From NCBI GenBank assembly GCA_025356715.1, contig JANXRU010000095.1, positions 1-26,118 on the forward strand: a stretch of DNA of 26,118 nt, read 5' to 3'. Positions 13,735-26,060 of this stretch are shown piece by piece (position 1 is the first letter of the stretch; each line of letters opens with the position of its first letter). The DNA is from Bacteroidota bacterium. GTDB lineage: Bacteria; Bacteroidota; Bacteroidia; B-17B0; B-17BO. A model generated the notes under the pieces. That model did no database searches. It was not told the DNA's origin and saw only the letters and a list, made by a program, of their open reading frames with translations. The position numbers and the translations under genes were made by a program.

Positions 13735-13823
13735 ATTTATTTTCTCATATTATTTTATATTTGTCAGTAATTAATGAAGTTGATTTATATAAAAAAACGC
13801 TTTTTTAAAACTATTTTTTTGTT

Positions 13824-13831
13824 TATCTTTG
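13824..13831 (+). promoter_or_regulatory. -7 box of the CarH-like regulator gene
   Basis: TATCTTTG matches TAnnTTTG exactly and lies 18 bp before the ATG at 13850, giving a leader of roughly 10-15 nt. The -33 position has only TTT. The 3' end of this box is overlapped by the inverted repeat at 13829-13850, so a bound repressor would block the promoter. Confidence 0.5.
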
Positions 13832-13850
13832 TTTAAAATTAGTTAAACAA
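13829..13850. promoter_or_regulatory. Inverted repeat operator at the CarH-like gene start
   Basis: TTGTTTAA (13829-13836) and TTAACAA-type arm TTAAACAA (13843-13850) are exact reverse complements around a 6-bp centre. The element runs from the -7 box to the first base of the start codon. The right half, extended to GTTAAACAA, is identical to the right half of the element between the two divergent operons at 17381-17412. The natural candidate to bind it is the MerR-type protein encoded immediately downstream. Confidence 0.55.
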
Positions 13851-14710
13851 TGTCATTTTATCAAATTTCAGATTTAGAACAATTAACAGGTATAAAAGCC
13901 CATACGATACGCATTTGGGAAAAGCGTTATAATTTAATTGAACCGCACCGTTCGGATACGAATATTAGATTTTATGACGATCAACAATTGAAAAAAATTC
14001 TCAATGTATCTACGCTCATTAATCATGGTTTTAAAATATCAAAAATTGCACAACTTTCTTTAACAGAAATTAAAAAGCACATTCTTTTAATTTGCGATAG
14101 TGACAAAAAGCCTGTCAATGAAGCTTTCGTAAATGATTTGACTATAGCGATGCTTGAGTTTAATGAAATTAATTTTGAAAAAGTGATTTCAAATGCTATT
14201 TTAAAATTTGGCGTTTTTGATGCGATGATAAACGTTATTTATCCTTTTTTAAATAAAGTTGGATTACTTTGGATTATCAATAATACAATGCCGTTTCAAG
14301 AGCATTTTGCTTCTCATTTGATAAAGCAAAAATTACATTCGTTATTAGATAATTTACCCTATAAAACATCAAAATACACTTATTTGCTTTTTTTACCAGA
14401 AAATGAATTTCATGAAATAGGATTGTTGTTTTCAAATTATATATTGCGTGCTAAAGGCATTAAAACTATTTATCTAGGTCAAAATGTACCTTTTCAAAAC
14501 ATAGAAGCGGCTATACTTGAAATTAAGCCCACTCATTTAGTAACGATGATTGTCTCAAATTTGAGTATGGAATTATTTAATCAAAAAAGTGTTTTCAAAT
14601 TAATTCAAGCCAAAAAAATTAAATTTTTAGTTGCTGGACGAATTGATTTGTTGTTACCTTTTGAAAAAACCCATTCAATCAGTATTTTAAAAACTCCAAA
14701 TGATTTGTAA
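13850..14710 (+). CDS. CarH/LitR-type MerR regulator with B12-binding photosensory domain
   Basis: This 286-aa regulator has three parts. The MerR winged helix-turn-helix (about 3-72) reads YQISDLEQLTGIKAHTIRIW and continues with EKRY. A four-helix cap (about 87-165) carries W141 followed nine residues later by E151-H152. A Rossmann B12-binding domain (about 176-286) has E186-x-H188-x-x-G191. W-x9-EH and the axial His motif are the signature of CarH/LitR photoreceptors, where adenosylcobalamin holds a DNA-bound repressor tetramer in the dark and light breaks the Co-C bond to release DNA. The residue set is complete, so B12 light sensing is likely; the axial motif has Glu where many cobalamin proteins have Asp. 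An inverted repeat covers its own promoter, implying autorepression. The photolyase-containing operons next door are the probable targets. Confidence 0.87.
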   Translation: MSFYQISDLEQLTGIKAHTIRIWEKRYNLIEPHRSDTNIRFYDDQQLKKILNVSTLINHGFKISKIAQLSLTEIKKHILLICDSDKKPVNEAFVNDLTIAMLEFNEINFEKVISNAILKFGVFDAMINVIYPFLNKVGLLWIINNTMPFQEHFASHLIKQKLHSLLDNLPYKTSKYTYLLFLPENEFHEIGLLFSNYILRAKGIKTIYLGQNVPFQNIEAAILEIKPTHLVTMIVSNLSMELFNQKSVFKLIQAKKIKFLVAGRIDLLLPFEKTHSISILKTPNDL

Positions 14711-14764
14711 ATAGATTGATGATGTTATGTTAAGATAATACATTTAAACTACAAATTAGTAGCG

Positions 14765-15673
14765 TCAATTTTGAAGCATACTTTCTAACGAAGTATGAGT
14801 AAATGTAAAGCCTTCGTTTCTTATTTTATCAGAACTGACTCTTGAGCCTTCTAATAAAACACATGCCAATTCTCCATATATGGCTTTTAAAATAAATGAT
14901 GGAACAGATGGCATAAAAAATGGTTTATTTAGTATGTTGGCTAACCCAATCATTAAATCTTTATTTGTTATATCGTAAGGTGAATTTGCATTAAACGTTC
15001 CTTCAAGGTCTGTATTTCTGATAGTAAATTCATACAACCTAACTAAATCATCAATACCAACAATTGGCATATATTGTTTGCCACTTCCTAATGGAGAAGC
15101 GAGCCCTAGTTTTACAATTGGTGTTATTTTTTGCAAAGCGCCGCCATCTTTACTAAGAACGGTAGGCAATCTAAGTATGATTACTCTATCAGTAAATTCA
15201 TTAAATGCTTGGTAAGATTTTTCCCATTGAAAACAGCATTCACCTAAAAAATCTTTTCCTGCATTATCTTTTTCTGTAAAAACCTTTTCACTCGTTATTG
15301 CGCCATAATAACCAATAGCAGAAGTCCCAATTAGTGCTTTGATTTTAGTGTTTTTTTCTTTAAGACTTTGAGCTAAAAACAAAGAACTGTTAACTCTACT
15401 ATCAATAATTTCTTTTTTTCTTTTGGTATTCCATCGTTTGTCAACAATACCAGTTCCTGCTAAATGAATAATGTAATCTATATTTTCTATTGCCCGTTTG
15501 TCAATTTGTTTTTCATTAACATTCCAATAAAAAACGGATTCAGATAAGTGTTTTTTGTTTTGCGTTAATCCTTTTATTAAAAATCCTTTTTTTGATAAGT
15601 AGGTAGATATGTGTCGAGCAAGTAATCCACTGTATCCAGTAATTAAAACAGTATGAATAGTAGAGGCTTTCAT
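14765..15673 (-). CDS. TIGR01777-family NAD(P)-binding SDR (YfcH/SDR39U1-like)
   Basis: This 302-aa extended SDR has a Rossmann start at residues 9-20 (VLITGYSGLLAR). The second Gly of the classic motif is replaced (G-Y-S-G-L-L-A), as is tolerated in this group. The segment GTSAIGYYG, with the catalytic-type Ser and Tyr, followed by GKDFLGECCFQWE, is diagnostic of the TIGR01777/YfcH family. A C-terminal DUF1731-like tail ends with LLEGSRVSSDKIRNEGF. The biochemical role is unknown for the family. It is the last gene of the folE operon, 5 bp after idi, and converges with the regulator gene over 54 bp. Membership of this operon suggests light-controlled expression, by inference. Confidence 0.85.
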   Translation of the reverse strand: MKASTIHTVLITGYSGLLARHISTYLSKKGFLIKGLTQNKKHLSESVFYWNVNEKQIDKRAIENIDYIIHLAGTGIVDKRWNTKRKKEIIDSRVNSSLFLAQSLKEKNTKIKALIGTSAIGYYGAITSEKVFTEKDNAGKDFLGECCFQWEKSYQAFNEFTDRVIILRLPTVLSKDGGALQKITPIVKLGLASPLGSGKQYMPIVGIDDLVRLYEFTIRNTDLEGTFNANSPYDITNKDLMIGLANILNKPFFMPSVPSFILKAIYGELACVLLEGSRVSSDKIRNEGFTFTHTSLESMLQN

Positions 15674-15678
15674 TTCTT

Positions 15679-16191
15679 TTATATGCTATGTTTTATTTTA
15701 TCAAAAATTAATTTAAACCAAACGGTATAGTTGTTTGATTTTTCTAACAAATCCTTTTCTATTTCATCAACCGATGCATAGCGATAGGCAACAACCTCGT
15801 CAGGATTAATTAAAGGAAGTGTATTGCATTTACCCAGGTAAACGTAATCCAATTCATATTCGATTAATTGATTAGGCAATATTGTGTGATATATAAAACT
15901 GAATTTATATTCCAATTCGCAAGTCATCCCCATTTCTTCGTTCAGTCTTCTACGTGCTGTTGTTTCTGATGTTTCGCCTTGTTTGGGATGAGTGCAACAA
16001 GTATTTGTCCATAAACCTGCTGAATGATATTTGTGATGCGCGCGTTGTTGAAGTAATAGTTTTTTTTGTGAATTGACGATAACAATAGAAATAGCACGAT
16101 GCAATTTACCTTCAATATGGGCTTGCATTTTTTCCATCACACCTAATTCATTATCGTGTTCATCAACTAATATAACGTATTCTTTACTCAT
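15679..16191 (-). CDS. idi: Isopentenyl-diphosphate delta-isomerase, type I
   Basis: This Nudix-fold enzyme interconverts IPP and DMAPP, supplying allylic primer for carotenoids, quinones and other isoprenoids. It has 170 aa from the chosen start, MSKEYVILVDE. A start 8 codons upstream is possible but would overlap the previous gene more deeply, whereas ATG at 16191 forms a tight ATGA overlap with the DUF2452 stop. Key features are TNTCCTHPKQGE (63-73), with the catalytic Cys at 66 and metal His at 68; the Nudix-type helix RRRLNEEMG (80-88); and Glu112 in the second acidic motif. The length is near the E. coli enzyme (182 aa). Idi inside a B12-light-sensor operon suggests carotenoid supply, although no crt gene is present in the window. 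Confidence 0.92.
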   Translation of the reverse strand: MSKEYVILVDEHDNELGVMEKMQAHIEGKLHRAISIVIVNSQKKLLLQQRAHHKYHSAGLWTNTCCTHPKQGETSETTARRRLNEEMGMTCELEYKFSFIYHTILPNQLIEYELDYVYLGKCNTLPLINPDEVVAYRYASVDEIEKDLLEKSNNYTVWFKLIFDKIKHSI

Positions 16192-16619
16192 ACAGTTGTA
16201 TTTATTATTTCCCAAGTATGGTCACTTAATAACCTTACAGCGCTTATGAAAATTAGATTCTCTTTTTTTAGTTTCCCCCATTCATCAGGAGCAATCATCA
16301 TTAGCTTATAGATTCCATCTTGTTCATATAAATAATAGTCACTCCCAACAAATGGCTCAAAAAACATTGTGGCTGTATATATTTTTTCACTTATTTCAAC
16401 TCGTTTTTTTATATCGAATGCTTGTTGAGCCAATAACTCTGCCTGTTTTTGTAGTTGCAATAATTGTCTATTAGTTTGATCATGCATAGCAGATAAGGCC
16501 CTTGATTTTAATTTACCAACATCTTCGGGCCTTACACTAATACTGCCTATATGGTGTGGATAAGCTAATAAACCTGGGTTTTCGGCAACTTTATCTTTAT
16601 CGATAGGATTTATAAACAT
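16188..16619 (-). CDS. DUF2452 protein, unknown function
   Basis: This is a 143-aa soluble protein without signal peptide or membrane helix. The N-terminus NPIDKDKVAENPGLLAYPH, the central KLKSRALSAMHDQTNRQL and the late motif MMIAPDEWG match the DUF2452 family as I recall it from Flavobacterium-like genomes. A long middle helix (about 38-78) rich in Gln, Leu and Ala probably forms a coiled coil, and the C-terminal third is beta-rich. It is translationally coupled on both sides: its start overlaps the folE stop by one base (TAATG) and its stop overlaps the idi start (ATGA). The tight coupling suggests it acts in the same physiological setting, but no biochemical role is known to me. Confidence 0.8.
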   Translation of the reverse strand: MFINPIDKDKVAENPGLLAYPHHIGSISVRPEDVGKLKSRALSAMHDQTNRQLLQLQKQAELLAQQAFDIKKRVEISEKIYTATMFFEPFVGSDYYLYEQDGIYKLMMIAPDEWGKLKKENLIFISAVRLLSDHTWEIINTTV

Positions 16620-17338
16620 TAGTAATTTGTATTTAAGTGTATGTATTTTAAAAACTCTTGCTTTACTGCTTCTGTGTTAAATTTCCCGCCATAAAAAGAA
16701 CTTACGGTGGCAGAACTATTATCTTTTATCCCTCTTGATGATACGCACAAATGTTTAGCGTCTAATAGCACAGCCACATCTTCTGTTTCTAGAATGTTCT
16801 GCAACTCATTTGCAATTTGCATCGTTAATCGCTCCTGCACTTGTGGACGCTTGGCAAAATAATTCACTATCCTGTTTAGTTTTGATAATCCTATTACTTT
16901 ACCTGATGAAATATACGCTAAATGAGCCTTCCCAAATATAGGCACAAAATGATGCTCGCAGTTACTATAAAACGTAATATCTTTTTCTACTAACATTTGA
17001 TTGTATTGGTACTTGTTTTCAAACAAAGCAATTTTTGGTTTATTTGCTGGATTTAATCCACTAAAAATCTCTTGAATATACATTTTTGCAACTCGTTTAG
17101 GCGTACCTTTTAAACTATCGTCACTCAAATCTAAACCCATAGTCTCCATTATTTGTTTAAAATGAAATTCGATCTTCGTTATTTTATCGTCATCACTCAC
17201 ATCGAACGCGTTAGGTAATAGTGGCGTATCAATACTTGTAGAGATATGTTCATCGCCAATTTCATCAATGGATGCTTCGCTTAAGTTTATGTTCTTTTTA
17301 TTTAACAACGCCTTCGTTTCTATAACTTCATTTCCCAT
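16619..17338 (-). CDS. folE: GTP cyclohydrolase I
   Basis: This enzyme converts GTP to 7,8-dihydroneopterin triphosphate, the first step to tetrahydrofolate and to the methenyl-THF antenna of many photolyases. The 239-aa protein has the Zn ligands C127, H130 and C198, the motif NCEHHFVPIFGKAH (126-139), and QERLTMQIAN (168-177). Residues 1-50 form an acidic, low-complexity extension beyond the ~190-220-aa core. It is the first gene of a leftward operon (folE, DUF2452, idi, SDR) and is divergent from the photolyase operon. A TAnnTTTG box on its strand lies 28 bp before the start. A folE placed beside photolyase genes under a light sensor fits antenna supply. It may be an inducible second copy, which this window cannot show. 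Confidence 0.93.
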   Translation of the reverse strand: MGNEVIETKALLNKKNINLSEASIDEIGDEHISTSIDTPLLPNAFDVSDDDKITKIEFHFKQIMETMGLDLSDDSLKGTPKRVAKMYIQEIFSGLNPANKPKIALFENKYQYNQMLVEKDITFYSNCEHHFVPIFGKAHLAYISSGKVIGLSKLNRIVNYFAKRPQVQERLTMQIANELQNILETEDVAVLLDAKHLCVSSRGIKDNSSATVSSFYGGKFNTEAVKQEFLKYIHLNTNY

Positions 17339-17365
17339 GATTTTAATATTTAAGTAATTTATTTA

Positions 17366-17373
17366 CAAATATA
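17366..17373 (-). promoter_or_regulatory. -7 box of the folE operon
   Basis: Read on the minus strand this is TATATTTG, an exact TAnnTTTG match, ending 28 bp before the folE ATG (17338). No TTG was found at the expected -33 distance, where the left arm of the inverted repeat (17381-17389) lies instead. The promoter may therefore depend on, or be blocked by, a factor bound there. Confidence 0.45.
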
Positions 17374-17374
17374 A

Positions 17375-17404
17375 TTGTATTTGTTTAACTTTTACATATA
17401 TTTG
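17375..17404 (+). promoter_or_regulatory. Promoter of the photolyase operon
   Basis: TTG at 17375-17377, then exactly 19 bases, then TATATTTG at 17397-17404: an excellent match to the Bacteroidota -33/-7 promoter. Transcription would start near 17410. This supports the ATG at 17423 as the first start of the operon and excludes the in-frame upstream ATG at 17375. Confidence 0.65.
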
Positions 17405-17412
17405 TTAAACAA
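17381..17412. promoter_or_regulatory. Perfect inverted repeat between divergent folE and photolyase operons
   Basis: TTGTTTAAC (17381-17389) and GTTAAACAA (17404-17412) are exact 9-bp reverse complements separated by 14 bp. The left arm lies between the -33 and -7 boxes of the rightward operon and just upstream of the folE -7 box. The right arm overlaps the rightward -7 box and start site. One bound tetramer could shut both promoters. The same half-sites occur at the CarH-like gene promoter (13829-13850). Confidence 0.6.
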
Positions 17413-17422
17413 AATTAAAGTC

Positions 17423-17881
17423 ATGTTACACACCATACAAACAAAACAATTTATTAAAAGCGATATTAATACGGTATGGGAATTTATGAGTTCGCCGAAA
17501 AACCTTGCCGCCATTACGCCAGAGTATATGCAATTTGAAGTGTTATCCGATTTAGGAGACGGAAAAATGTATCAAGGACAGATTATAGAATATTATGTAA
17601 AACCATTGTTGGGAATTAAACTACACTGGGTTACCGAAATCACACACGTTCAAGAGCTTCAGTTTTTTGTGGATGAGCAACGTTTTGGGCCTTATAAGTT
17701 TTGGCATCACAAACATTCTTTAAAACCAATAAATGGTGGGGTAGAAATGCTTGATTTAATACACTACCAATTACCCTTAGGAATACTTGGCAAATTAGGA
17801 AATGAATTATTTGTAAAAAAACAATTACAACAGGTATTTGATTATCGATTTAAAGTGGTAGAAAAAATATTTAATACCTAA
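17423..17881 (+). CDS. SRPBCC-family (START/Bet v1-like) protein
   Basis: This 152-aa soluble helix-grip protein is built to hold a hydrophobic ligand. The start reads MLHTIQTKQFIKSDINTVW and runs into FMSSPKNLAAITP, the standard opening of SRPBCC ligand-binding domains. Later motifs are WVTEITHVQELQFFVDEQR and GPYKFWHHKH, typical of the cyclase/dehydrase-like branch seen near SDR and photolyase genes. ATG 17423 was chosen because the promoter's -7 box ends at 17404; a longer frame from 17375 would begin inside the promoter. It is the first gene of the light-response operon, followed after 2 bp by the DUF2805 gene. The ligand is unknown; a pterin, flavin or isoprenoid would suit the neighbours, but this is speculation. 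Confidence 0.82.
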   Translation: MLHTIQTKQFIKSDINTVWEFMSSPKNLAAITPEYMQFEVLSDLGDGKMYQGQIIEYYVKPLLGIKLHWVTEITHVQELQFFVDEQRFGPYKFWHHKHSLKPINGGVEMLDLIHYQLPLGILGKLGNELFVKKQLQQVFDYRFKVVEKIFNT

Positions 17882-17883
17882 TA

Positions 17884-18258
17884 ATGACAACAACTGAAAA
17901 CACTTATTGTTATTACAGTGATTTACCCTCGCCTATGGCATACATGGATGTAGAAGATGTGAATGTAAATTCAGCTATGAATTTATCAGATATTGATATC
18001 AATAGAATAATAGAAATGGCATGGGAAGACCGGACGCCATTTGATGCTATTAAAAATCAGTTCGGCATAAGTGAAAATAAAGTAAAAGCTTTAATGAAAA
18101 AATCATTAAAATTTAGTAGCTATATATTATGGAGGAATCGAGTTCAAAACTGTAATACCAAACATGCTAAAAAAAGAATTGATTCTATTAACAGATTTAA
18201 ATGTTCTTTACAACGATCGATTACATCAAATAAAATATCTAAACGAAACACAAAATGA
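17884..18258 (+). CDS. DUF2805/TIGR03643-family small basic protein
   Basis: This 124-aa protein belongs to an uncharacterised family. The core (about 38-124) has IIEMAWEDRTPFDAIKNQFG, a following helix LMKKSLKFSSYILWRNRV, then TKHAKKR and a C-terminal ISKRNTK, matching TIGR03643/DUF2805. The AWEDRTPF...QFGISENKV segment resembles a helix-turn-helix, and the tail is strongly basic, so nucleic-acid binding is conceivable. About 35 residues precede the core and are poorly conserved in my memory of the family; Met33 is an alternative start. The stop overlaps the next ATG (ATGA), indicating translational coupling to the SDR. I recall such proteins near photolyase genes in other bacteria. The function is unknown. 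Confidence 0.8.
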   Translation: MTTTENTYCYYSDLPSPMAYMDVEDVNVNSAMNLSDIDINRIIEMAWEDRTPFDAIKNQFGISENKVKALMKKSLKFSSYILWRNRVQNCNTKHAKKRIDSINRFKCSLQRSITSNKISKRNTK

Positions 18259-18944
18259 GTAACACTTATTTATTAGCAGGCGCATCTAGCGCTATGGCTA
18301 TTGAAACCTGTAAATTGTTAAAGGCAAATGGGAATACCGTCATTGGAATCTCCACTAAAAAAAACAATGATCACTACAACTTTTGCTATCAAGTAGAAAA
18401 ATATGAAACGGCCTATTTTCCCAAACTAGATACCGCCATAGATGGTATTGTTTATTTCCCTGGGACAATTAATTTAAAACCCTTTCATAGGCTAACAACC
18501 TCAGAGTTTATAAAGGATTATGAAATTAACGCTTTAGGTGCTGTTCAGGTTATTCAATATTATTTGCCGCAATTAAAATTAAGCGCAAAAGCATCCATTG
18601 TATTAATGAGTACTGTAGCTGTTCAAACAGGCATGCCATTTCATTCATCAATCGCTATGGCTAAAGGCGCAATTGAAGGATTAACTAAAGCATTGGCTGC
18701 TGAGTTAGCGCCAAACATTAGGGTAAATACCGTTGCGCCATCATTAACCGTCACGCCATTAGCTGATAGATTTACAAACACTCCTGAAAAAATGGAAGCT
18801 TCCGTAAAAAGAAATCCATTAAAAAAAGTAGGAACAGCCAATGAATTAGCGGAAGCAATTTCATTTCTATTAACCGAAAAATCATCATGGATTACAGGTC
18901 AAATACTAGCTGTAGATGGTGGCATGGGAGCTTTAACATTATAA
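18255..18944 (+). CDS. SDR-family protein with degenerate active site
   Basis: This 229-aa classical-length SDR has most family landmarks: Asn92 in YEINALG, Ser119 in VLMSTVAV, Lys137, and the C-terminal ITGQILAVDGGMG. The catalytic Tyr of Y-x-x-x-K is absent: the position is Ile133 in SSIAMAK. The nucleotide-binding Gly motif is also eroded (AGASSAMA rather than TGxxxGIG). The block TGMPFHSSIAMAKGAIEGLTK is one I associate with SDRs in photolyase clusters, so the change looks like a subfamily property rather than decay. The frame is intact. It may bind a nucleotide or act as a non-redox scaffold rather than as a normal oxidoreductase. It is coupled to the DUF2805 gene by an ATGA overlap and lies 9 bp before the flavin reductase. 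Confidence 0.85.
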   Translation: MSNTYLLAGASSAMAIETCKLLKANGNTVIGISTKKNNDHYNFCYQVEKYETAYFPKLDTAIDGIVYFPGTINLKPFHRLTTSEFIKDYEINALGAVQVIQYYLPQLKLSAKASIVLMSTVAVQTGMPFHSSIAMAKGAIEGLTKALAAELAPNIRVNTVAPSLTVTPLADRFTNTPEKMEASVKRNPLKKVGTANELAEAISFLLTEKSSWITGQILAVDGGMGALTL

Positions 18945-18953
18945 TTAATTAAA

Positions 18954-19595
18954 ATGATCACTAAAGACATTAATTTAAAAGACATACTAAATTTTGAACC
19001 CCGATATAGAGTTGCGTTTATCAATTCCTTGGGAGGCTTTAAAAGTTTAGTTTTAATTGGCACACGAAGTAAAGATGGCGTCAGTAATTTAGCGGTGTTT
19101 AGTTCGTTGTTTCATATTGGAGCTAATCCGCCGTTGCTTGGATTTATAATTCGTCCCGATTCGGTTGAAAGACATACCTTAAGTAATATATTAGAAACAG
19201 GAGAGTTTACGGTAAATCATGTTCGCGAAGAATTTTACAAACAAGCACATCAAACATCTGCTCGTTATGGCAATGATATCAGTGAATTTGGCGCTACGCA
19301 TTTATTAGAAGAAAATAAAACTGGTTTTTACGCTCCCTTTGTAAAGGAAAGTTATATAAAAATGAGCGCCAATTTTATACAAAAAATAGATATTCAAGAA
19401 AATGGAACAATCATGCTTATTGCAAAAATTAAATTGGTATCTGTTCCTACAGATTGTATAGGTGATGATGGATTTATTGATATTGAAAAGGCAGAAACAA
19501 TCACCTGTAGCGGGTTAGACAGTTATCATCGCACAAAAAAAATTGCACGATTAAGTTATGCAAAACCGAATATACCACTTACAGAAATAGTGTAA
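18954..19595 (+). CDS. Flavin reductase-like (FMN-binding split barrel) protein
   Basis: This 213-aa cytoplasmic protein has the DIM6/NTAB flavin-reductase-like split barrel. Visible family blocks are [39 protein letters not shown], then an Arg-Pro-Asp loop, and [17 protein letters not shown] (about 85-101). Relatives bind FMN or FAD and use NAD(P)H to make reduced flavin, though many members with this Tyr/Phe-rich N-terminus are uncharacterised. In this operon, upstream of three photolyase-type flavoproteins, reduced-flavin supply or redox priming of FADH- is a reasonable inference. It lies 9 bp after the SDR and 5 bp before the next gene. Confidence 0.85.
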
Positions 19596-19600
19596 AGAAC

Positions 19601-21094
19601 GTGTTAAAACAAGAAATAAATATAGTTTGGTTTAAACGCGATTTACGTTTTACAGATCATGAGCCACTTTATTTAGCGCAACAACAAAACATTCCAGTAC
19701 TATTACTTTACTGTTTTGAGCCATCGCTAATGACTTATGATGATAGTGACACAAGGCATTGGCGTTTTGTTTACGAATCGCTCAAGGATATGCAAAGTAA
19801 ATTAAATAATTTAAAGGCACAATTATATGTTTTTCATAACGAGATACTTCCTGTATTTAAAGCTATTGAAGAACATTACAGCATACAAACTATTTTTTCT
19901 CATCAGGAAATTGGCAATAAAATAAGCTATAATAGAGATATTTCCGTTCAAGCATTTTGTAAATACAACAATATTAATTGGAAAGAATCGCAGTTACATG
20001 GAGTTATTCGAAAATTAAAAACAAGACAACATTGGGAGCAGCTGTGGTTTCAAACGATGACAGAGCATCCAAAAATGGTAGATGAAACTAATTGGAAAAT
20101 ACTGAAGATAGACGAGATACTTTATGCGAAAATAAAAGGAGAAAATTTATCAACCGAAATAATGACGCCAAATAAAAATTTTCAACAAGGTGGCGAAACG
20201 TTGGCTTGGAAATACTTACAGAGTTTTATTAAAGATAGATGTATTAATTATAGTTCGCATATTTCAAAACCTTTACTGAGTCGTAGAGGTTGTAGCCGAT
20301 TATCACCCTACTTAACTTACGGTAATATTAGTATGCGTATGGTTTATTTATACACACAACAACATTGCCATACCGCAACTCATAAAAGAGTCTTAGCTAA
20401 TTTTAAATCTCGTTTAATATGGCACTGTCACTTTATGCAAAAATTTGAAGATGAGTGCCGCATGGAATTTGAAAACGTAAATCGTGCTTACGACCAATTA
20501 ATTAAACCCAAAAATGAAACCTACATTATGGCTTGGCAACAAGGCAAAACGGGCGTTCCTTTGGTAGATGCTTGTATGCGATGTTTGGTAGCAACAGGCT
20601 ATATCAATTTTAGAATGCGTGCCATGGTAGTTTCTTTTTTTGTATTTAATTTGTGGCAAGATTGGCGTGAACTACATTTTTTAGCCAAACAGTTTTTAGA
20701 TTACGAGCCCGGTATACATTATCCGCAACTGCAAATGCAAAGCGGAGTTACAGGCATTAACACCATTCGTATTTATAACCCAATAAAAAATTCGGAAGAC
20801 CACGATACCGAAGGATTATTTATTAAACAATGGTTACCCGAATTAGCAAACATTCCAGCGTATTTAATACATGAGCCATGGAAATTATCTTTGATAGAAC
20901 AACAGCTATACAGTTGCGAAATTGGCATTAATTATCCTGCACCCATTGTAGATATTGATGCTACACGAAAATATGCAAGCGACTTAGTTTGGCAATACCG
21001 AAAAACAGATTTAATAAAAGCAGAAGGGCAACGCATCCTAAAAAAACATGCTAATAATCCAAAATCACACTTAATAAAAAAAATAAAAAAATGA
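19601..21094 (+). CDS. Cryptochrome/photolyase-family protein lacking canonical catalytic residues
   Basis: The 497-aa protein is clearly a photolyase homologue: an N-terminal antenna domain begins [20 protein letters not shown], and a C-terminal FAD domain contains [18 protein letters not shown] and IRIYNP. Key sites differ from class I enzymes by hand alignment. The E-L-I-W-R motif is R271-L-I-W274-H275. The region of N378/W382/W384 (E. coli numbering) reads [16 protein letters not shown] (370-385), with Gly, Pro and Leu at those places, so the FAD-contacting Asn and the proximal electron-transfer Trp are lost. Trp equivalents at 355 and 312 remain. I recall this IHYPQ...QSG form as a separate subfamily often labelled FAD-binding or cryptochrome-like. 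Translation starts at GTG 19601, 5 bp after the flavin reductase. A repair activity cannot be assumed. Confidence 0.85.
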
Positions 21095-21558
21095 ATCGTT
21101 ACTTAACCCTCATTTATTGTATAGCCCTCCCTTTGTTAGTAGGCGCTTTTTCTGGATTTGCAACTGCCAGCAACATTGGTACTTGGTACGTTACCTTAAA
21201 TAAACCTTGTTTCAATCCTCCCAATTATTTGTTTGCGCCAGTTTGGAGAACCCTTTATGTTATTATGGGAATTTCTTTTTTTATGATTTTACAAATGCCA
21301 AAATCCTTAGCAAGAAAAAAAGCCATTCGTGTTTTTTATATTCAACTATTTTTAAATTTTGGGTGGAGTTTTATCTTTTTTAATTTTCATTTATTAGGCA
21401 TTGCTTTAATAGAAATTTGCATCATGTGGGTAGCTATTTTAAGTATGATTATCCTATTTAAAAAAATAAATACAACAGCCGCATACCTTCAAATCCCTTA
21501 TTTAATGTGGGTTTCGTTCGCTACAGTATTAAATAATAGTTTGTGGTGGTTAAACTAA
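21091..21558 (+). CDS. tspO: TspO/MBR-family tryptophan-rich sensory protein
   Basis: This 155-aa protein has five hydrophobic helices, as in bacterial TspO, which binds porphyrins, haem and sterol-like ligands. Diagnostic blocks are [23 protein letters not shown] in the first loop (given in part: [13 protein letters not shown]), the second-helix [19 protein letters not shown] in helix 3 and LNNSLWWLN at the C-terminus. TspO from Rhodobacter modulates photosynthesis genes, and bacterial TspO can degrade protoporphyrin in a light-dependent way. The ATG overlaps the stop of the preceding photolyase-like gene (ATGA), so the two are coupled. Its place in the operon suits a role against light-excited porphyrins, by inference. 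It is full length and intact. Confidence 0.92.
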
Positions 21559-21570
21559 TATTAAAAAACG

Positions 21571-21642
21571 ATGACAACTTTTTCAGAAGCTAACTGGGAG
21601 CATATTGTTATGGTTAATTGTGAAGTGCCTGAAAATGAGTGA
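21571..21642 (+). CDS. Possible 23-aa small ORF after tspO
   Basis: ATG at 21571 opens a 23-codon frame (starts MTTFSEANWEHIV, ends PENE). It begins 12 bp after tspO and its end overlaps the start of the next small ORF by eight bases, an arrangement like that of coupled genes in this operon. No homologue is recognised and the length is too short for coding statistics, so it may be chance. Confidence 0.2.
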   Translation: MTTFSEANWEHIVMVNCEVPENE

Positions 21643-21760
21643 AAAAATATTTACCGAAACACATCCTGATCGCTATCGTTATAAAAAAATAACATCAATA
21701 CATGAAATTGTCGTTTTTATTAAACACAAAGATAAACTGGCTATACCATGTGACAACTAA
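21635..21760 (+). CDS. Possible 41-aa small basic protein
   Basis: ATG at 21635 opens a 41-codon frame beginning MSEKIFTETHPDRYRYKKI and ending DKLAIPCDN. It is basic, with a hydrophobic beta-like stretch (IHEIVVFIK) and one Cys. It sits between tspO and the DUF2256 gene, in the operon direction. I do not recognise a family. It could be real, or the remnant of a gene whose front half is the preceding 23-codon frame. Confidence 0.3.
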   Translation: MSEKIFTETHPDRYRYKKITSIHEIVVFIKHKDKLAIPCDN

Positions 21761-21778
21761 AAATAATAATATCTACAC

Positions 21779-21922
21779 ATGAAAGGCGTAAAAAAACAAA
21801 ATCTACCTTCTAAAATTTGCTTGGTTTGCAACTTGCCATTTACGTGGAGAAAAAAGTGGGATAAAAATTGGAACGATGTCAAATACTGCAGCGACAGGTG
21901 TAAAACAACTAAAAAAAGATAA
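21779..21922 (+). CDS. DUF2256 small four-cysteine protein
   Basis: This 47-aa protein begins [18 protein letters not shown] and has CxxC at C14/C17 and a second pair C37/C41 (YCSDRC). The segment [18 protein letters not shown] between them has the conserved Trp residues of DUF2256. The spacing suggests a zinc ribbon. The family is uncharacterised; I recall members beside photolyase and cryptochrome genes. It ends one base before the ATG of the FeS-BCP photolyase at 21924, which shows both that this gene is real and that the photolyase begins there rather than at the upstream in-frame ATG (21876) inside this gene. A partner or cofactor-related role with the photolyase is inferred from position only. 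Confidence 0.88.
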
Positions 21923-21923
21923 C

Positions 21924-23465
21924 ATGAGCACTAAAAAAACACTTCGTTTAATTTTGGGAGATCAACTCAATAGCCAACATAGTTGGTTTAAAAGCGTTGA
22001 TAAATCAGTTACTTATGTGCTAATGGAAATTAGAACAGAAACAGATTATGCGACACATCACATACAAAAAGTTGTTGGCTTTTTTGCCGCTATGCAGCAA
22101 TTTGCATACGAGTTGTTACAAAAAAAACACCAAGTCGTATATATTTATCTTAATGATAAACACAATTTACAAGCCTTTGATAAAAATTTATCTGCATTGA
22201 TTTTAAAAGAAAAATTTACTCATTTTGAATATCAATTTCCAGACGAATATAGAGTAAACACCCACTTAAAAGTTTTTTGCAAAACACTTGTCATAGAAAA
22301 TAGTGCAACAGATAGCGAACATTTTTTAACTACGCGCCATGAACTTGGTGCTTTTTTTGAAGGAAAAAAAATGTATTTGATGGAAAGTTTTTATCGAGCA
22401 TTGCGAAAAAAGCATCATATCCTAATGGATGGAAACAATCCACTAACAGGGCAATGGAACTACGATAAAGATAATCGAAAAAAATTACCTGCTAATCATA
22501 TCTGCACATCGCCTTTAGTTTTCGATAATGATGTGACGGCCATTGTACATGAAATTAAAAAACAAAACATTAAAACAATTGGGAACATAGATTCTAAAAA
22601 TTTTGTATGGCCAATTAACCGAACACAATCATTACAGTTACTTGAGTTTTTTGTACAAGAATGCCTCCCATTATTTGGCACATACGAGGATGCAATGACT
22701 CCCAACGAATGGTCGCTGTACCACTCGAGATTATCCTTTTCTATGAATATAAAATTATTATCGCCAAAAGAAGTTATTAGCCGAGCCATTGTCGAGTGGG
22801 AAGCAAGACCTAACGAAATTGAAATCAATCAACTCGAAGGTTTTGTGCGACAAATATTGGGTTGGCGTGAATATATGCGTGGAATTTATTGGTTAAAAAT
22901 GCCCGAATTTGAAAGCATGAATTTTTTTAATCATACCGAAAAATTACCAAAATGGTATTGGACAGGAGAAACAAAAATGAAATGTTTAAGTCATACTATT
23001 AAACAATCTCTTAACTATGCATACGCTCATCATATACAACGATTAATGGTAACGGGCAACTTCGCCTTATTAGCTGGTGTGCATCCTGATGAAGTAGATA
23101 AATGGTATTTAGGTATTTATATAGATGCTCTTGATTGGGTTGAAATTACCAATACAAGGGGCATGAGTCAGTTTGCAGATGGTGGTATTATAGGTACAAA
23201 ACCGTATGTAAGCTCTGCTTCTTATATCGATAAAATGAGCCATTATTGTGGCACATGCTATTATAAAAAATCAGTGAAAATAGGTGATAGGGCTTGCCCC
23301 TTTAATAGTTTGTATTGGAATTTTTATGATAAACACGAAGATAAATTAGCTAAAAATCCACGCATTGGTATGATGTATAATGTTTGGCGACGCATGACAC
23401 CAGATGTTAAATCTGATTTATTACAACAAGCTGAATTTTATTTAACTAATATTGATACATTATAA
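21924..23465 (+). CDS. FeS-BCP photolyase (prokaryotic (6-4) photolyase, PhrB/CryB type)
   Basis: This 513-aa protein starts MSTKKTLRLILGDQLN, the characteristic opening of the iron-sulfur bacterial cryptochrome/photolyase class (cryptochrome/photolyase-related, DUF523-type antenna domain). The C-terminal domain has YAHHIQRLMVTGNFALL (two conserved His at 369-370), NTRGMSQFADGG and YCGTCYY. Four Cys fit the [4Fe-4S] ligands of PhrB: C354, C442, C445 and C458. Characterised relatives repair (6-4) photoproducts and carry FAD, a lumazine antenna and the cluster; Rhodobacter CryB also has regulatory roles. ATG 21924 was chosen because it follows the DUF2256 stop by one base; the earlier ATG at 21876 lies in that gene. 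The DASH cryptochrome gene begins 1 bp after it. The length is typical (~510 aa). Confidence 0.93.
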   Translation: MSTKKTLRLILGDQLNSQHSWFKSVDKSVTYVLMEIRTETDYATHHIQKVVGFFAAMQQFAYELLQKKHQVVYIYLNDKHNLQAFDKNLSALILKEKFTHFEYQFPDEYRVNTHLKVFCKTLVIENSATDSEHFLTTRHELGAFFEGKKMYLMESFYRALRKKHHILMDGNNPLTGQWNYDKDNRKKLPANHICTSPLVFDNDVTAIVHEIKKQNIKTIGNIDSKNFVWPINRTQSLQLLEFFVQECLPLFGTYEDAMTPNEWSLYHSRLSFSMNIKLLSPKEVISRAIVEWEARPNEIEINQLEGFVRQILGWREYMRGIYWLKMPEFESMNFFNHTEKLPKWYWTGETKMKCLSHTIKQSLNYAYAHHIQRLMVTGNFALLAGVHPDEVDKWYLGIYIDALDWVEITNTRGMSQFADGGIIGTKPYVSSASYIDKMSHYCGTCYYKKSVKIGDRACPFNSLYWNFYDKHEDKLAKNPRIGMMYNVWRRMTPDVKSDLLQQAEFYLTNIDTL

Positions 23466-23466
23466 T

Positions 23467-24759
23467 ATGAAGAGGTCTATTGTTTGGTTTAAAACCGACT
23501 TACGTTTGCACGACAATGAAACTCTTGTACAAGCCATTGCGCAAAGCGACGAGATAATACCCGTATATTGTTTTGAAGATGATCATTATAAAACTAGTGA
23601 ATTTAATTTTTTAAAAACAGGAAATTTTAGAGCCCAATTTTTATTAGAATCCTTACAAGGCCTAGACAAACATTTACGAGAGTTAGATTCCGGATTATTA
23701 ATTATGCGAGGTAATGCAGCTCAAGAGATAACCAAAGTTGCGGCATACTTTGGTGCACAAAAAGTGTTTGCCAAAAAAGAAGTAGCACACGATGAAAAAA
23801 ACACAGAAGCTGTTGTTGAAAAAAAATTATGGGAAATAAATTGTACGCTAGAAACATATAGCACAAGCACGTTATATCATGCGGTAGATTTACCTTTTTC
23901 AATTAAAGATATACCAAATATTTTTACAAACTTTAGAAAAAAAGTAGAAAAGGAATCCAGTATTAGACCCATATTTGATGCACCAAAACAGATCATATCA
24001 CCCAAAATAAAACAATGGGAACTCCCCAGCTTGCAACAACTTGGATTAACACCAACCATTAAAGATACTCGACAGGTTATTGATTTTAAAGGTGGGGAAA
24101 GCGAAGGCTATAAACGTTTGCATCATTATTTTACTAAAACAAAAGCGATATCATCGTATAAAGAAACTCGCAACGGATTAATTGGAGCTAATTATTCTAC
24201 AAAATTTTCAGCATGGTTGGCAAATGGTTGTTTATCGCCACGCGAAATTTATTATGAACTAAAAAAATACGAATCGGTTTATGGCGAAAATGAATCTACA
24301 TATTGGTTAGTATTTGAATTATTGTGGCGCGATTATTTTAGATTTATGATAAAGAAACACCGTAATAGTTTTTTTTTACAAGCTGGTATAAAAGCAGTTG
24401 AATCTAATTTAAAAACGCATAGTCCAGAAATTTTGCAGAAATGGATAAATGGACAAACAGGTGTTGATTTTATAGACTCTAATATGCTTGAATTAAAATA
24501 TACAGGCTTTATGAGTAATCGTGGAAGACAAAACGTAGCGAGTTTTTTGGTAAATGATTTAAAGCTCGATTGGCGATTTGGCGCAGCTTATTTTGAACAA
24601 CAATTAATAGATTACGATGTTTGCAGCAATTGGGGAAATTGGGCTTATTTGGCTGGCGTTGGCAATGACCCAAGGGGCAACCGCTATTTTAATATAGAAA
24701 AGCAAGCTCATGATTATGATTCGAATGAGCTCTATAGAAAGACTTGGTTAAATCATTAA
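23467..24759 (+). CDS. DASH-family cryptochrome
   Basis: This 430-aa cryptochrome has the antenna domain start SIVWFKTDLRLHDNETL, the central FKGGESEGYKRL (207-218), LSPREIYYEL (256-265), the catalytic-region helix FELLWRDYFRFM (283-294) and the C-terminal NWGNWAYLAGVGNDPRGNRYF (388-408). WRDYFRF together with GVGNDPRxxRYFxxxKQ is diagnostic of CRY-DASH. These proteins bind FAD and usually MTHF, repair CPDs in single-stranded or looped DNA, and may signal. It is slightly short at the C-terminus but complete. ATG 23467 is used: it lies 1 bp after the previous stop and directly before the domain, whereas an ATG at 23452 would extend into the upstream gene. It is the last gene of the rightward operon and converges with the class I photolyase after 2 bp. 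Confidence 0.92.
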   Translation: MKRSIVWFKTDLRLHDNETLVQAIAQSDEIIPVYCFEDDHYKTSEFNFLKTGNFRAQFLLESLQGLDKHLRELDSGLLIMRGNAAQEITKVAAYFGAQKVFAKKEVAHDEKNTEAVVEKKLWEINCTLETYSTSTLYHAVDLPFSIKDIPNIFTNFRKKVEKESSIRPIFDAPKQIISPKIKQWELPSLQQLGLTPTIKDTRQVIDFKGGESEGYKRLHHYFTKTKAISSYKETRNGLIGANYSTKFSAWLANGCLSPREIYYELKKYESVYGENESTYWLVFELLWRDYFRFMIKKHRNSFFLQAGIKAVESNLKTHSPEILQKWINGQTGVDFIDSNMLELKYTGFMSNRGRQNVASFLVNDLKLDWRFGAAYFEQQLIDYDVCSNWGNWAYLAGVGNDPRGNRYFNIEKQAHDYDSNELYRKTWLNH

Positions 24760-24761
24760 AT

Positions 24762-26060
24762 TCACCGCAACGCCTCTTTATATGCCTTTAATGTTCTGGT
24801 GCGGGCTTGCGCATGATCAACAATAGGTGTAGGGTATTGGCAAGAGTTTAGTTCAGGAATCCATGAATTGATGTATTGTAATTCTTTATCAAATTTAATC
24901 GTTTGCGCGGTCGGATTAAAAATTCGAAAATAAGGAGCAGCATCACAACCACTACCTGCTGCCCATTGCCAACCACCATTATTCGCACTCAAATCAAAAT
25001 CAAGCAATTTATCGGCAAAATAGGCTTCGCCCCAACGCCAATCTATTAATAAATCCTTTACTAAAAAACTTGCCACAATCATTCGAACTCTATTGTGCAT
25101 AAAACCCGTTGCGTTTAATTGTCGCATACCAGCATCAATTATAGGGTAACCAGTTTTTCCATCGCACCAAGCTTTAAATTCTTGCTCATTGTTACGCCAT
25201 ACAATGTTATTGTATGCTGGTTTAAAAGCACCTTTAACCACATGCGGAAAATGGAATAAAATCATCATATAAAAATCTCGCCATATCAATTCGTTAAGCC
25301 ACGTTTCGCTTAACCCTTGCGCAGATCGAGCTAACGTTCTAATACTAACTGTACCAAAACGCAAATGTACGCTAAGCATGGTTGTGCCTTGTATCGAAGG
25401 AAAATCACGTTGTAGACTATACTTAATGAGTAATTCTTTTTTTATTGTTTTAGTAGGTATAGTTAAATTAGTTTTTTTAAAACCTATATCTTCTAATGTC
25501 GGAATCTGTTTAAATTCTGTTTTATAAAATTCCGAAAAATACTTTTCGGTTGGATACGATGCCAGATAAAACGCATTGAGTTTAGCTTTCCATTTTTTAC
25601 TATAAGGCGTAAAAATAGTGTATGGTTTCCCATCATCTTTTGTTACTTCCGCTTTTTCAAAAACACATTGGTCTTTGTAAGTCATAAAATTAATGCCTTT
25701 GCTAGATAAAAACTGTTTAATGCTTTCATCTCGTTCTATCGCACGAGGCTCATAATCGTGATTAGTATAAACAGCATCAATAACGTAAGTCTTAGTTAGC
25801 TCTTCAAAAGCTTTAAGAGGATTGCTTTGTAATACCAGCAGACTAGACTGATGTTGTTGTAATTGCTCATTTAGTTGAGTTAGTGTTTGATGAATGAAAT
25901 CGACTCGTTGATCTTTTTTAGTTGGAAGTTTTTCCAAGATCGTTTTATCAAAAATAAAAATCGGCAATACGTTACACCCACTTTTAAGTGCATGGTAAAG
26001 CCCCGCATTATCATTTAAACGCAAATCTCTTCTAAACCAAAATAGGGCAATTTTTTTCAT
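24762..26060 (-). CDS. phrB: Class I CPD photolyase
   Basis: This 432-aa photolyase should split cyclobutane pyrimidine dimers with blue light. The N-terminal antenna domain opens KIALFWFRRDLRLNDNAGLY. The FAD domain contains NELIWRDFY (256-264), with substrate Glu257 and Trp260; the electron-transfer Trp candidates are W298, W341 and W364. MHNRVRMIVASFLVKDLLID (321-340) and SANNGGWQWAAGSG (358-371) are the textbook class I blocks, and IFNP follows. The size is slightly below E. coli PhrB (472 aa). It is on the strand opposite the other photolyases and tail-to-tail with the DASH gene. The 58 bp visible upstream of its start show no copy of the GTTAAACAA element, so its control may differ from the operon's, or its operator may lie beyond the window. 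Confidence 0.94.
   Translation of the reverse strand: MKKIALFWFRRDLRLNDNAGLYHALKSGCNVLPIFIFDKTILEKLPTKKDQRVDFIHQTLTQLNEQLQQHQSSLLVLQSNPLKAFEELTKTYVIDAVYTNHDYEPRAIERDESIKQFLSSKGINFMTYKDQCVFEKAEVTKDDGKPYTIFTPYSKKWKAKLNAFYLASYPTEKYFSEFYKTEFKQIPTLEDIGFKKTNLTIPTKTIKKELLIKYSLQRDFPSIQGTTMLSVHLRFGTVSIRTLARSAQGLSETWLNELIWRDFYMMILFHFPHVVKGAFKPAYNNIVWRNNEQEFKAWCDGKTGYPIIDAGMRQLNATGFMHNRVRMIVASFLVKDLLIDWRWGEAYFADKLLDFDLSANNGGWQWAAGSGCDAAPYFRIFNPTAQTIKFDKELQYINSWIPELNSCQYPTPIVDHAQARTRTLKAYKEALR

Follow-up and report, generated by a model that had tools for sequence, protein, structure and literature searches.

What could place four different photolyase/cryptochrome genes side by side in one bacterial genome, and what would switch them on? 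We addressed this question in a 26,118-nucleotide stretch of Bacteroidota DNA (GenBank assembly GCA_025356715.1, contig JANXRU010000095.1, positions 1 to 26,118; hereafter, the window), whose light-related gene set spans positions 13850-26060. We propose, with a probability of roughly 0.7, that this cluster forms the local portion of a photoprotection regulon that light induces by way of a B12-dependent photoreceptor. The cluster diverges from the intergenic region between folE and an SRPBCC-like gene, which holds the 30-bp palindrome TGTTTAA-N16-TTAAACA, and it includes a gene for a CarH/LitR-like regulator with a MerR-type DNA-binding domain and a B12-binding domain (13850-14710, + strand). 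Since a probable B12 light sensor occurs together with boxes that recur in related genomes before repair, carotenoid and rhodopsin genes, the cluster is probably light-activated. A preliminary description of the same DNA had suggested a photoprotection island with shared cofactor genes, which is supported as probable; folE, for pterin, diverges from the same intergenic region. Its suggestion of signalling had no direct support; the candidate sensor next to these genes is not a cryptochrome but the CarH/LitR-like protein, which that description had not listed.

CarH binds DNA in an adenosylcobalamin-dependent manner, and this binding is lost in light. By analogy, the regulator in the dark would hold adenosylcobalamin and occupy the box, which overlaps promoter-like elements, such that both gene strings and carH would be off. 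In light, the cobalamin photoreceptor would be broken and the protein would leave the DNA. The cell would then make cyclobutane pyrimidine dimer (CPD) and (6-4) photolyases, the antenna pterin supply and the isoprenoid precursor.

We also considered a wider reading, to which we give somewhat less than even odds. The 30-bp operator may mark a B12-photoreceptor regulon of light-exposed Bacteroidota that jointly comprises several photolyase classes, antenna pterin, carotenoids, rhodopsin and retinal, and the gene of its own regulator. In such a regulon, CRYX, a photolyase-like subfamily whose active-site letters depart from the textbook pattern, would be a widespread flavoprotein with its flavin against an invariant His and without the Trp-triad entry residue, and hence with new photochemistry. 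If this is true, one short operator lists candidate light-induced genes in Bacteroidota isolates and metagenome bins, light sensing of non-photosynthetic Bacteroidota becomes directly testable, and DNA photorepair, carotenoids and rhodopsin phototrophy fall under one switch. What is more interesting about the locus is its predicted light switch and the unusual active site of CRYX, both read from sequence.

A recurrent palindrome and its candidate reader

The exact palindrome occupies positions 17382-17411, between the divergent gene strings. The leftward string runs from 17338 (folE, DUF2452, idi and TIGR01777), and the rightward string begins at about 17423 (SRPBCC-like, DUF2805, short-chain dehydrogenase (SDR), flavin reductase, CRYX, TspO, DUF2256, FeS-BCP and DASH). 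A second predicted CarH box, TGTTTAT-N16-TTAAACA with one mismatch (13820-13849), abuts the carH start codon; an N6 spacing considered for this box was replaced by the N16 reading. A relaxed palindrome pattern had three matches in the window, compared with 0.01 expected. The third match (22983-23005) lies within the FeS-BCP gene at a different spacing and was taken as chance.

We next consider the spacing at 80 CRYX loci, the best 80 of at least 590. In their 1.33 Mb, exact half-site pairs occurred 19 times as N16 and once each as N17 and N29, with none at the other spacings from 0 to 40. For 14 of the 19 N16 boxes, a recognised cluster gene started no more than 70 bp away; for the other five, the distance was 144-1348 bp. 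The motif TAnnTTTG, which we take to be the Bacteroidetes -7 element, overlapped 35 of the 152 arms of 76 unique boxes (23%) versus 34 of 658 lone half-sites (5%); this enrichment suggests that control is exerted directly at the promoter. Within the window box, TATATTTG lies at 17397-17404, and its reverse complement stands alongside at 17366-17373.

The genes preceded by the box were then compared across genomes. In 15 genomes hand-picked from the loci, 12 of them because a box (one of them N17) had shown at the CRYX locus, we found 54 box sites, compared with one in the reversed control. Family models confirmed one to three representatives of each type of neighbour named below, and the remaining neighbours were assigned by aligning them with proteins of the window or by inspecting their sequences. 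Besides photolyase strings, the targets included Bac_rhodopsin (L126, L134), Blh divergent from rhodopsin (L134), CrtI above the CrtID cut-off (L132, L150, L155), FolE (L143), PTPS (L121), AIRS (L129), TetR_C_23 (L131), ECF sigma factors (L120, L122), a fasciclin protein (L144) and a CarH-like MerR protein that scored 68 of 400 bits (L128). From a PF03441 listing of relatives of the genome that carries locus L001, we picked 22 with at least three PF03441 proteins and eight without any; 21 of the 22 contained the box (51 sites; control, 3). Among the matches listed, a box lay at most 5 kb upstream of 9 of 22 class I CPD genes and 6 of 19 CRYX genes, where subfamily was read off the span of the PF03441 match. 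In many relatives, the class I CPD photolyase looks to be part of the same predicted regulon, also where it is not linked to the cluster. Of 296 genomes drawn evenly across the phylum, 53 contained the box, with 139 sites versus 19 in the control.

The window regulator matched PF13411 and PF02607 above cut-off and has W141, E151, H152, E186, H188 and G191; W..EH and ExHxxG are the defining cobalamin motifs of CarH and LitR. Across 31 CarH rows, the W and EH were invariant, and 29 rows had the His at the ligand position. The protein reached 98 bits of the 400 required by the CarH equivalog model NF052513; therefore, we regard it as a distant CarH homologue and term it CarH/LitR-like only. It shares domains and motifs with CarH (PDB 3whp, 5c8d) but differs in this distance, and its role as a photoreceptor is putative.

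CarH homologues (E 1e-15) were found in 70 of 100 relatives of the L017 genome (Flavobacterium macrobrachii). From these relatives, we took all 30 genomes without CarH and 30 of the 70 with CarH, in listed order without genome G004. As the CarH-less genomes are smaller, rates are given per Mb. The box occurred in 29 of 30 CarH genomes (92 sites in 104.9 Mb; 0.88 per Mb) versus 6 of 30 CarH-less genomes (7 sites in 76.1 Mb; 0.09 per Mb; Fisher p 7e-10). In addition, a half-site pair with N16 and at most two mismatches was present within about 330 bp upstream of carH at 20 of 30 carH loci, compared with 0-10 of 30 for the other spacings from N8 to N24. Pairs with no more than one mismatch were present at only six of the 30 promoters, and the right arm at carH was often TGAACA instead of TAAACA. 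A homologue of the L132 CrtI was in the flank of 29 of these 30 loci. Because of the co-occurrence, the boxes at carH promoters and the conserved cobalamin motifs, the CarH-like protein is most likely the reader of the box.

Several observations weigh against this interpretation. Some boxes are next to fasciclin, Porph_ging or unrecognised genes, one lies within a gene, and others, including those at L123, L124, L127 and L148, have no sensible target. The eight relatives without a PF03441 protein still contained six sites in three genomes (control, 2), and no box was present in the 58 bp visible upstream of the class I gene of the window. In 29 of 30 relatives, the neighbour of carH is crtI, in contrast to the photolyase genes that neighbour it in the window. 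The ligand-position His is absent in 2 of 30 CarH homologues, one CarH genome lacks the box, and the reversed control gave nine sites in the CarH genomes. N17 pairs were likewise elevated upstream of carH (10 of 30 promoters), so that the site model is provisional. Finally, seven boxes occurred in six genomes in which no CarH homologue was detected (control, 2). These seven boxes, as well as the boxes that precede genes for an ECF sigma factor and a TetR_C_23 protein, would be expected if the box belonged to another light or singlet-oxygen regulator (a second MerR protein, TetR_C_23 or an ECF-related factor) and CarH were merely a member of the regulon. We consider this unlikely, given the co-occurrence of box and CarH (29 of 30 versus 6 of 30) and the boxes at the promoter of carH itself (20 of 30); from general knowledge, a long palindrome also suits a MerR-type dimer or tetramer.

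Related systems place the predicted CarH-controlled switch, which would be of the Pseudomonas LitR type, in context. According to PMC9758184, the light-induced genes under LitR-type regulators in Pseudomonas include the photolyase gene phrB, ufaM, folE, cryB and an SDR gene. The window resembles this LitR/PplR-PmlR system in having a LitR/CarH-type MerR protein with PhrB, CryB, SDR and folE nearby or in the regulon. The Pseudomonas regulators, however, are described there as class II LitR proteins controlled through a LOV protein, whereas the window has B12-ligand residues, the predicted 30-bp N16 palindrome, and CRYX, DASH and TspO in the string. A flavobacterial carotenoid cluster begins with a MerR-family gene in the accessible text of PMC11855829. 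MliR, a MerR-like protein of Bacteroidetes, was rejected as a counterpart because, according to its abstract, it has no effector domain, and it concerns iron (PMC9478572). PMC9426592, PMC9498864 and PMC12627116 supply general background. Our searches of open-licence PMC text showed no description of the TGTTTAA-N16-TTAAACA box, and one may exist elsewhere.

Three minor features of the boxes were recorded. At the 30 carH loci (L168-L197), 16 further boxes with at most one mismatch lay outside the carH promoter, some 0.9-1.5 kb past the start of carH and probably in front of the crtI gene that follows. Boxes also preceded genes for fasciclin-like secreted proteins at L125, L133, L144, L147, L158 and L159 (one confirmed by Pfam), without an evident connection to light. 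Boxes in tandem, 41-44 bp apart, were present at L120 (612-682), before an ECF sigma gene, and in genomes G004, G005, G007, G008, G011, G014, G073, G074 and G086. The pair in G004 (L146) lay between rhodopsin- and blh-like genes, and those in G073, G074 and G086 were upstream of class I CPD genes.

The four photolyase-type proteins and their linkage

All four photolyase/cryptochrome open reading frames (ORFs) of the preliminary description were present and intact at 19601-26060. They represent four distinct subfamilies. A maximum-likelihood tree of 55 rows, including 20 random and two plasmid CRYX proteins, 15 random DASH proteins and nine class I proteins, placed CRYX, DASH and class I in separate groups (support 100/100, 100/100 and 70/94, respectively); FeS-BCP was kept out because it was not safely alignable. 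The separation indicates that these are not recent duplicates, in line with the preliminary description, and recent tandem duplication was rejected on the basis of the tree.

FeS-BCP, a PhrB/CryB-type (6-4) photolyase-like protein (21924-23465, +), matched PF04244 alone at an E cut-off of 0.001 (240 bits). Its closest solved protein was 7ykn, named a (6-4) photolyase (E 4e-166, residues 21-529), and its cysteine pattern (kmkC, yCgtC and raCp) aligned as in 7ykn, with four cysteines present that we take to be the ligands of the Fe-S cluster. The start at 21924 is preferred over the mechanical ORF start at 21876, since the longer ORF would overlap the DUF2256 gene. The DASH cryptochrome (23467-24759, +) scored 543.6 bits with TIGR02765 against a cut-off of 317.05 (ORF run from 23452) and grouped with 1np7 at 100/100. 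DASH cryptochromes repair CPD in single-stranded DNA. The class I CPD photolyase (24762-26060, -) is convergent with the DASH ORF, 2 bp apart. Its best solved relatives were class I enzymes, such as 1owl, and it was identical to E. coli Phr at E274, N341, M345, N378 and the Trp triad; the catalytic and contact roles of the Phr residues, here and for CRYX, are those that we assume. It remained below both NCBIfam class I cut-offs (396.4 versus 884.6 and 352.9 versus 506 bits). These two models are narrow (8-hydroxy-5-deazaflavin (8-HDF) type and PRK10674); therefore, the class was assigned by residues and tree. The proposed coverage of CPD, (6-4) and single-strand lesions follows from family membership only, and no lesion could be assigned to CRYX.

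Next, we compared the neighbourhoods of the 80 CRYX loci. A PF04244 homologue was located within 2.5 kb of CRYX at 44 of 69 testable loci, a somewhat generous proportion because 11 loci with less than 4.5 kb beyond CRYX and no such match were excluded; at 29 of these loci it was at least 50% identical to that of the window. The linkage of CRYX and FeS-BCP is beyond chance. CRYX, FeS-BCP and DASH occurred together at 20 of 80 loci, and a class I CPD gene adjoined DASH at 0 of 20 testable related loci. A conserved four-gene block was therefore rejected; the conserved unit is the three-gene core of CRYX, FeS-BCP and DASH, with class I elsewhere in the genome. Locus L001 came closest to the gene order of the window, which it matches from folE to DASH. 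In it, DUF2071 stands in the place of TspO, the contig ends within DASH, and the class I gene is on another contig; at L162, the contig with the end of this DASH gene, no class I gene was present in the 4.8 kb examined beyond it. TspO was retained at L016 and L019.

Gene order and content differed among the CRYX loci. This variation, together with a fourth gene outside the conserved block (0 of 20), would fit a view in which operon hitch-hiking alone has made these genes neighbours, under no shared control and forming no system beyond ordinary photolyases. However, the same rare palindrome precedes unlinked light-related genes, and we judge hitch-hiking very improbable compared with common control through the box. 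As a separate observation, the PF04244-type proteins near CRYX at the 80 loci formed two groups, 56-75% and 31-35% identical to the FeS-BCP of the window.

A photolyase gene-proximity cluster enriched in proteorhodopsin-bearing marine Flavobacteriia has been published (PMC5932025); therefore, the clustering itself is not new. That cluster and the window share grouped photolyase-related genes in Bacteroidota and a link to a proteorhodopsin lifestyle, but the available portion of that paper describes no operator, regulator or subfamily analysis. In lake Nitrospira, a gene for an FeS-BCP (6-4) photolyase is beside a member of an uncharacterised photolyase-related family (PMC9239080). The adjacency is as in the window, and the identity of that family with CRYX is only possible; unlike the window, neither DASH nor CarH is mentioned in the accessible part of that text.

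The CRYX subfamily

CRYX (19601-21094, +), which the preliminary description had called an unorthodox cryptochrome-like protein, matched PF03441 with 216 bits and PF00875 with 72 bits, and it reached no NCBIfam photolyase cut-off. Assignment to class I, DASH or the plant type was rejected, as CRYX was below every NCBIfam cut-off and formed its own long-branch clade (100/100). The program warned that long branches meet, and thus the depth of CRYX relative to plant CRY is unsure. Judged from these sequence comparisons, CRYX fits no named photolyase/cryptochrome class.

We aligned 88 rows, comprising the protein of the window and the 87 of 89 matches that passed the filter (at least 30% identity, 380-900 aa); 87 rows are left once one contained copy is removed. 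In the numbering of E. coli Phr, the canonical CPD photolyase residues E274, N341, M345, N378 and W382 were not kept. The E274 position, a CPD contact, was Arg and the N341 position was Phe in 88 of 88 rows; the M345 position was Ala in 82 and Ser in six. The flavin-facing N378 position, that of the Asn at N5 of flavin adenine dinucleotide (FAD), was His in all 88 rows. The FAD-proximal W382 position was Leu, Phe, Ile, Val, Thr or Met and never Trp (0 of 88), the W384 position was Met in all rows, and the W306 position was Trp in one row. Meanwhile, the W277, R342, R344, W359 and D372 positions were conserved in 88 of 88 rows. As the CPD-contact residues were replaced throughout, no lesion is assignable to CRYX.

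A protein search gave at least 7999 scored homologues, unsorted by subfamily; the 120 listed, the protein of the window aside, were 70-82% identical, and the closest loci were from Bacteroidota. On plasmid records, the best 25 of 192 matches were 36-46% identical and came from Salinivibrio, Vibrio, Pseudoalteromonas, Persicobacter, Tritonibacter and Deinococcus. CRYX was thus found in Bacteroidota, Gammaproteobacteria, Alphaproteobacteria and Deinococcus. In the annotated Salinivibrio and Tritonibacter plasmid regions examined, CRYX is overlapped or followed by a gene for DUF2256; no such gene was at CRYX in the annotated Deinococcus region, and two other regions examined were unannotated. On a Deinococcus proteolyticus plasmid (L167, 4998-7271), a CRYX-family protein carries a C-terminal uracil-DNA glycosylase domain, and four further Deinococcus plasmid matches were annotated as uracil-DNA glycosylase at the match.

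We consider CRYX most likely to be a flavoenzyme that acts on DNA lesions and belongs to an uncharacterised subfamily whose flavin chemistry is altered; this is the least certain step of our interpretation, and the evidence for repair is limited to one fusion and the neighbouring genes. CRYX could instead be a true cryptochrome, that is, a photoreceptor that signals and does not repair, a reading supported by the replacement of the FAD-N5 Asn and of the Glu, Asn and Met at CPD-contact positions; light sensing has also been suggested for a bacterial photolyase-related family, possibly CRYX, in the available text of PMC9239080. We find this rather unlikely in view of the glycosylase fusion in D. 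proteolyticus, the PF04244 homologue within 2.5 kb at 44 of 69 testable loci, and the W277, R344 and D372 positions kept in 88 of 88 rows.

Remaining genes of the window

The window looks like Bacteroidota DNA: it encodes a PorV-family (type IX secretion) protein, and its nearest CRYX loci come from Bacteroidota. The leftward string opens with the gene for GTP cyclohydrolase I (folE; 16619-17338, -; family model), whose product is presumably the pterin precursor of the methenyltetrahydrofolate antenna. It is followed by a DUF2452 gene (16188-16619, -; 38.9 bits versus a cut-off of 25), the isopentenyl-diphosphate isomerase gene idi (15679-16215, -; above two NCBIfam cut-offs) and, as the final gene, a TIGR01777 (YfcH-like) oxidoreductase gene (14765-15673, -; family model).

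The first rightward gene encodes an SRPBCC/cyclase-like protein (17423-17881, +; start inferred) that is 52% identical to a protein at L142. This L142 homologue has a marginal PF03364 match, and the protein of the window has no Pfam match. Downstream are genes for a DUF2805/TIGR03643 protein (17884-18258, +; family models), the SDR (18255-18944, +; Pfam) and a flavin reductase-like protein (18954-19595, +; PF01613), and, beyond CRYX, for a TspO/MBR protein (21091-21558, +; Pfam) and a DUF2256 protein (21779-21922, +; 78 bits versus a cut-off of 25), the last of which was absent from the preliminary description. The rightward genes mostly overlap or are a few bases apart, with the exception of a 220-bp gap between TspO and DUF2256 (21559-21778). 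This gap may hold a decayed DUF2071 gene that is intact at L001 and L016; the possible remnant (21571-21642, +) is a weak match, with 8 of 19 residues identical.

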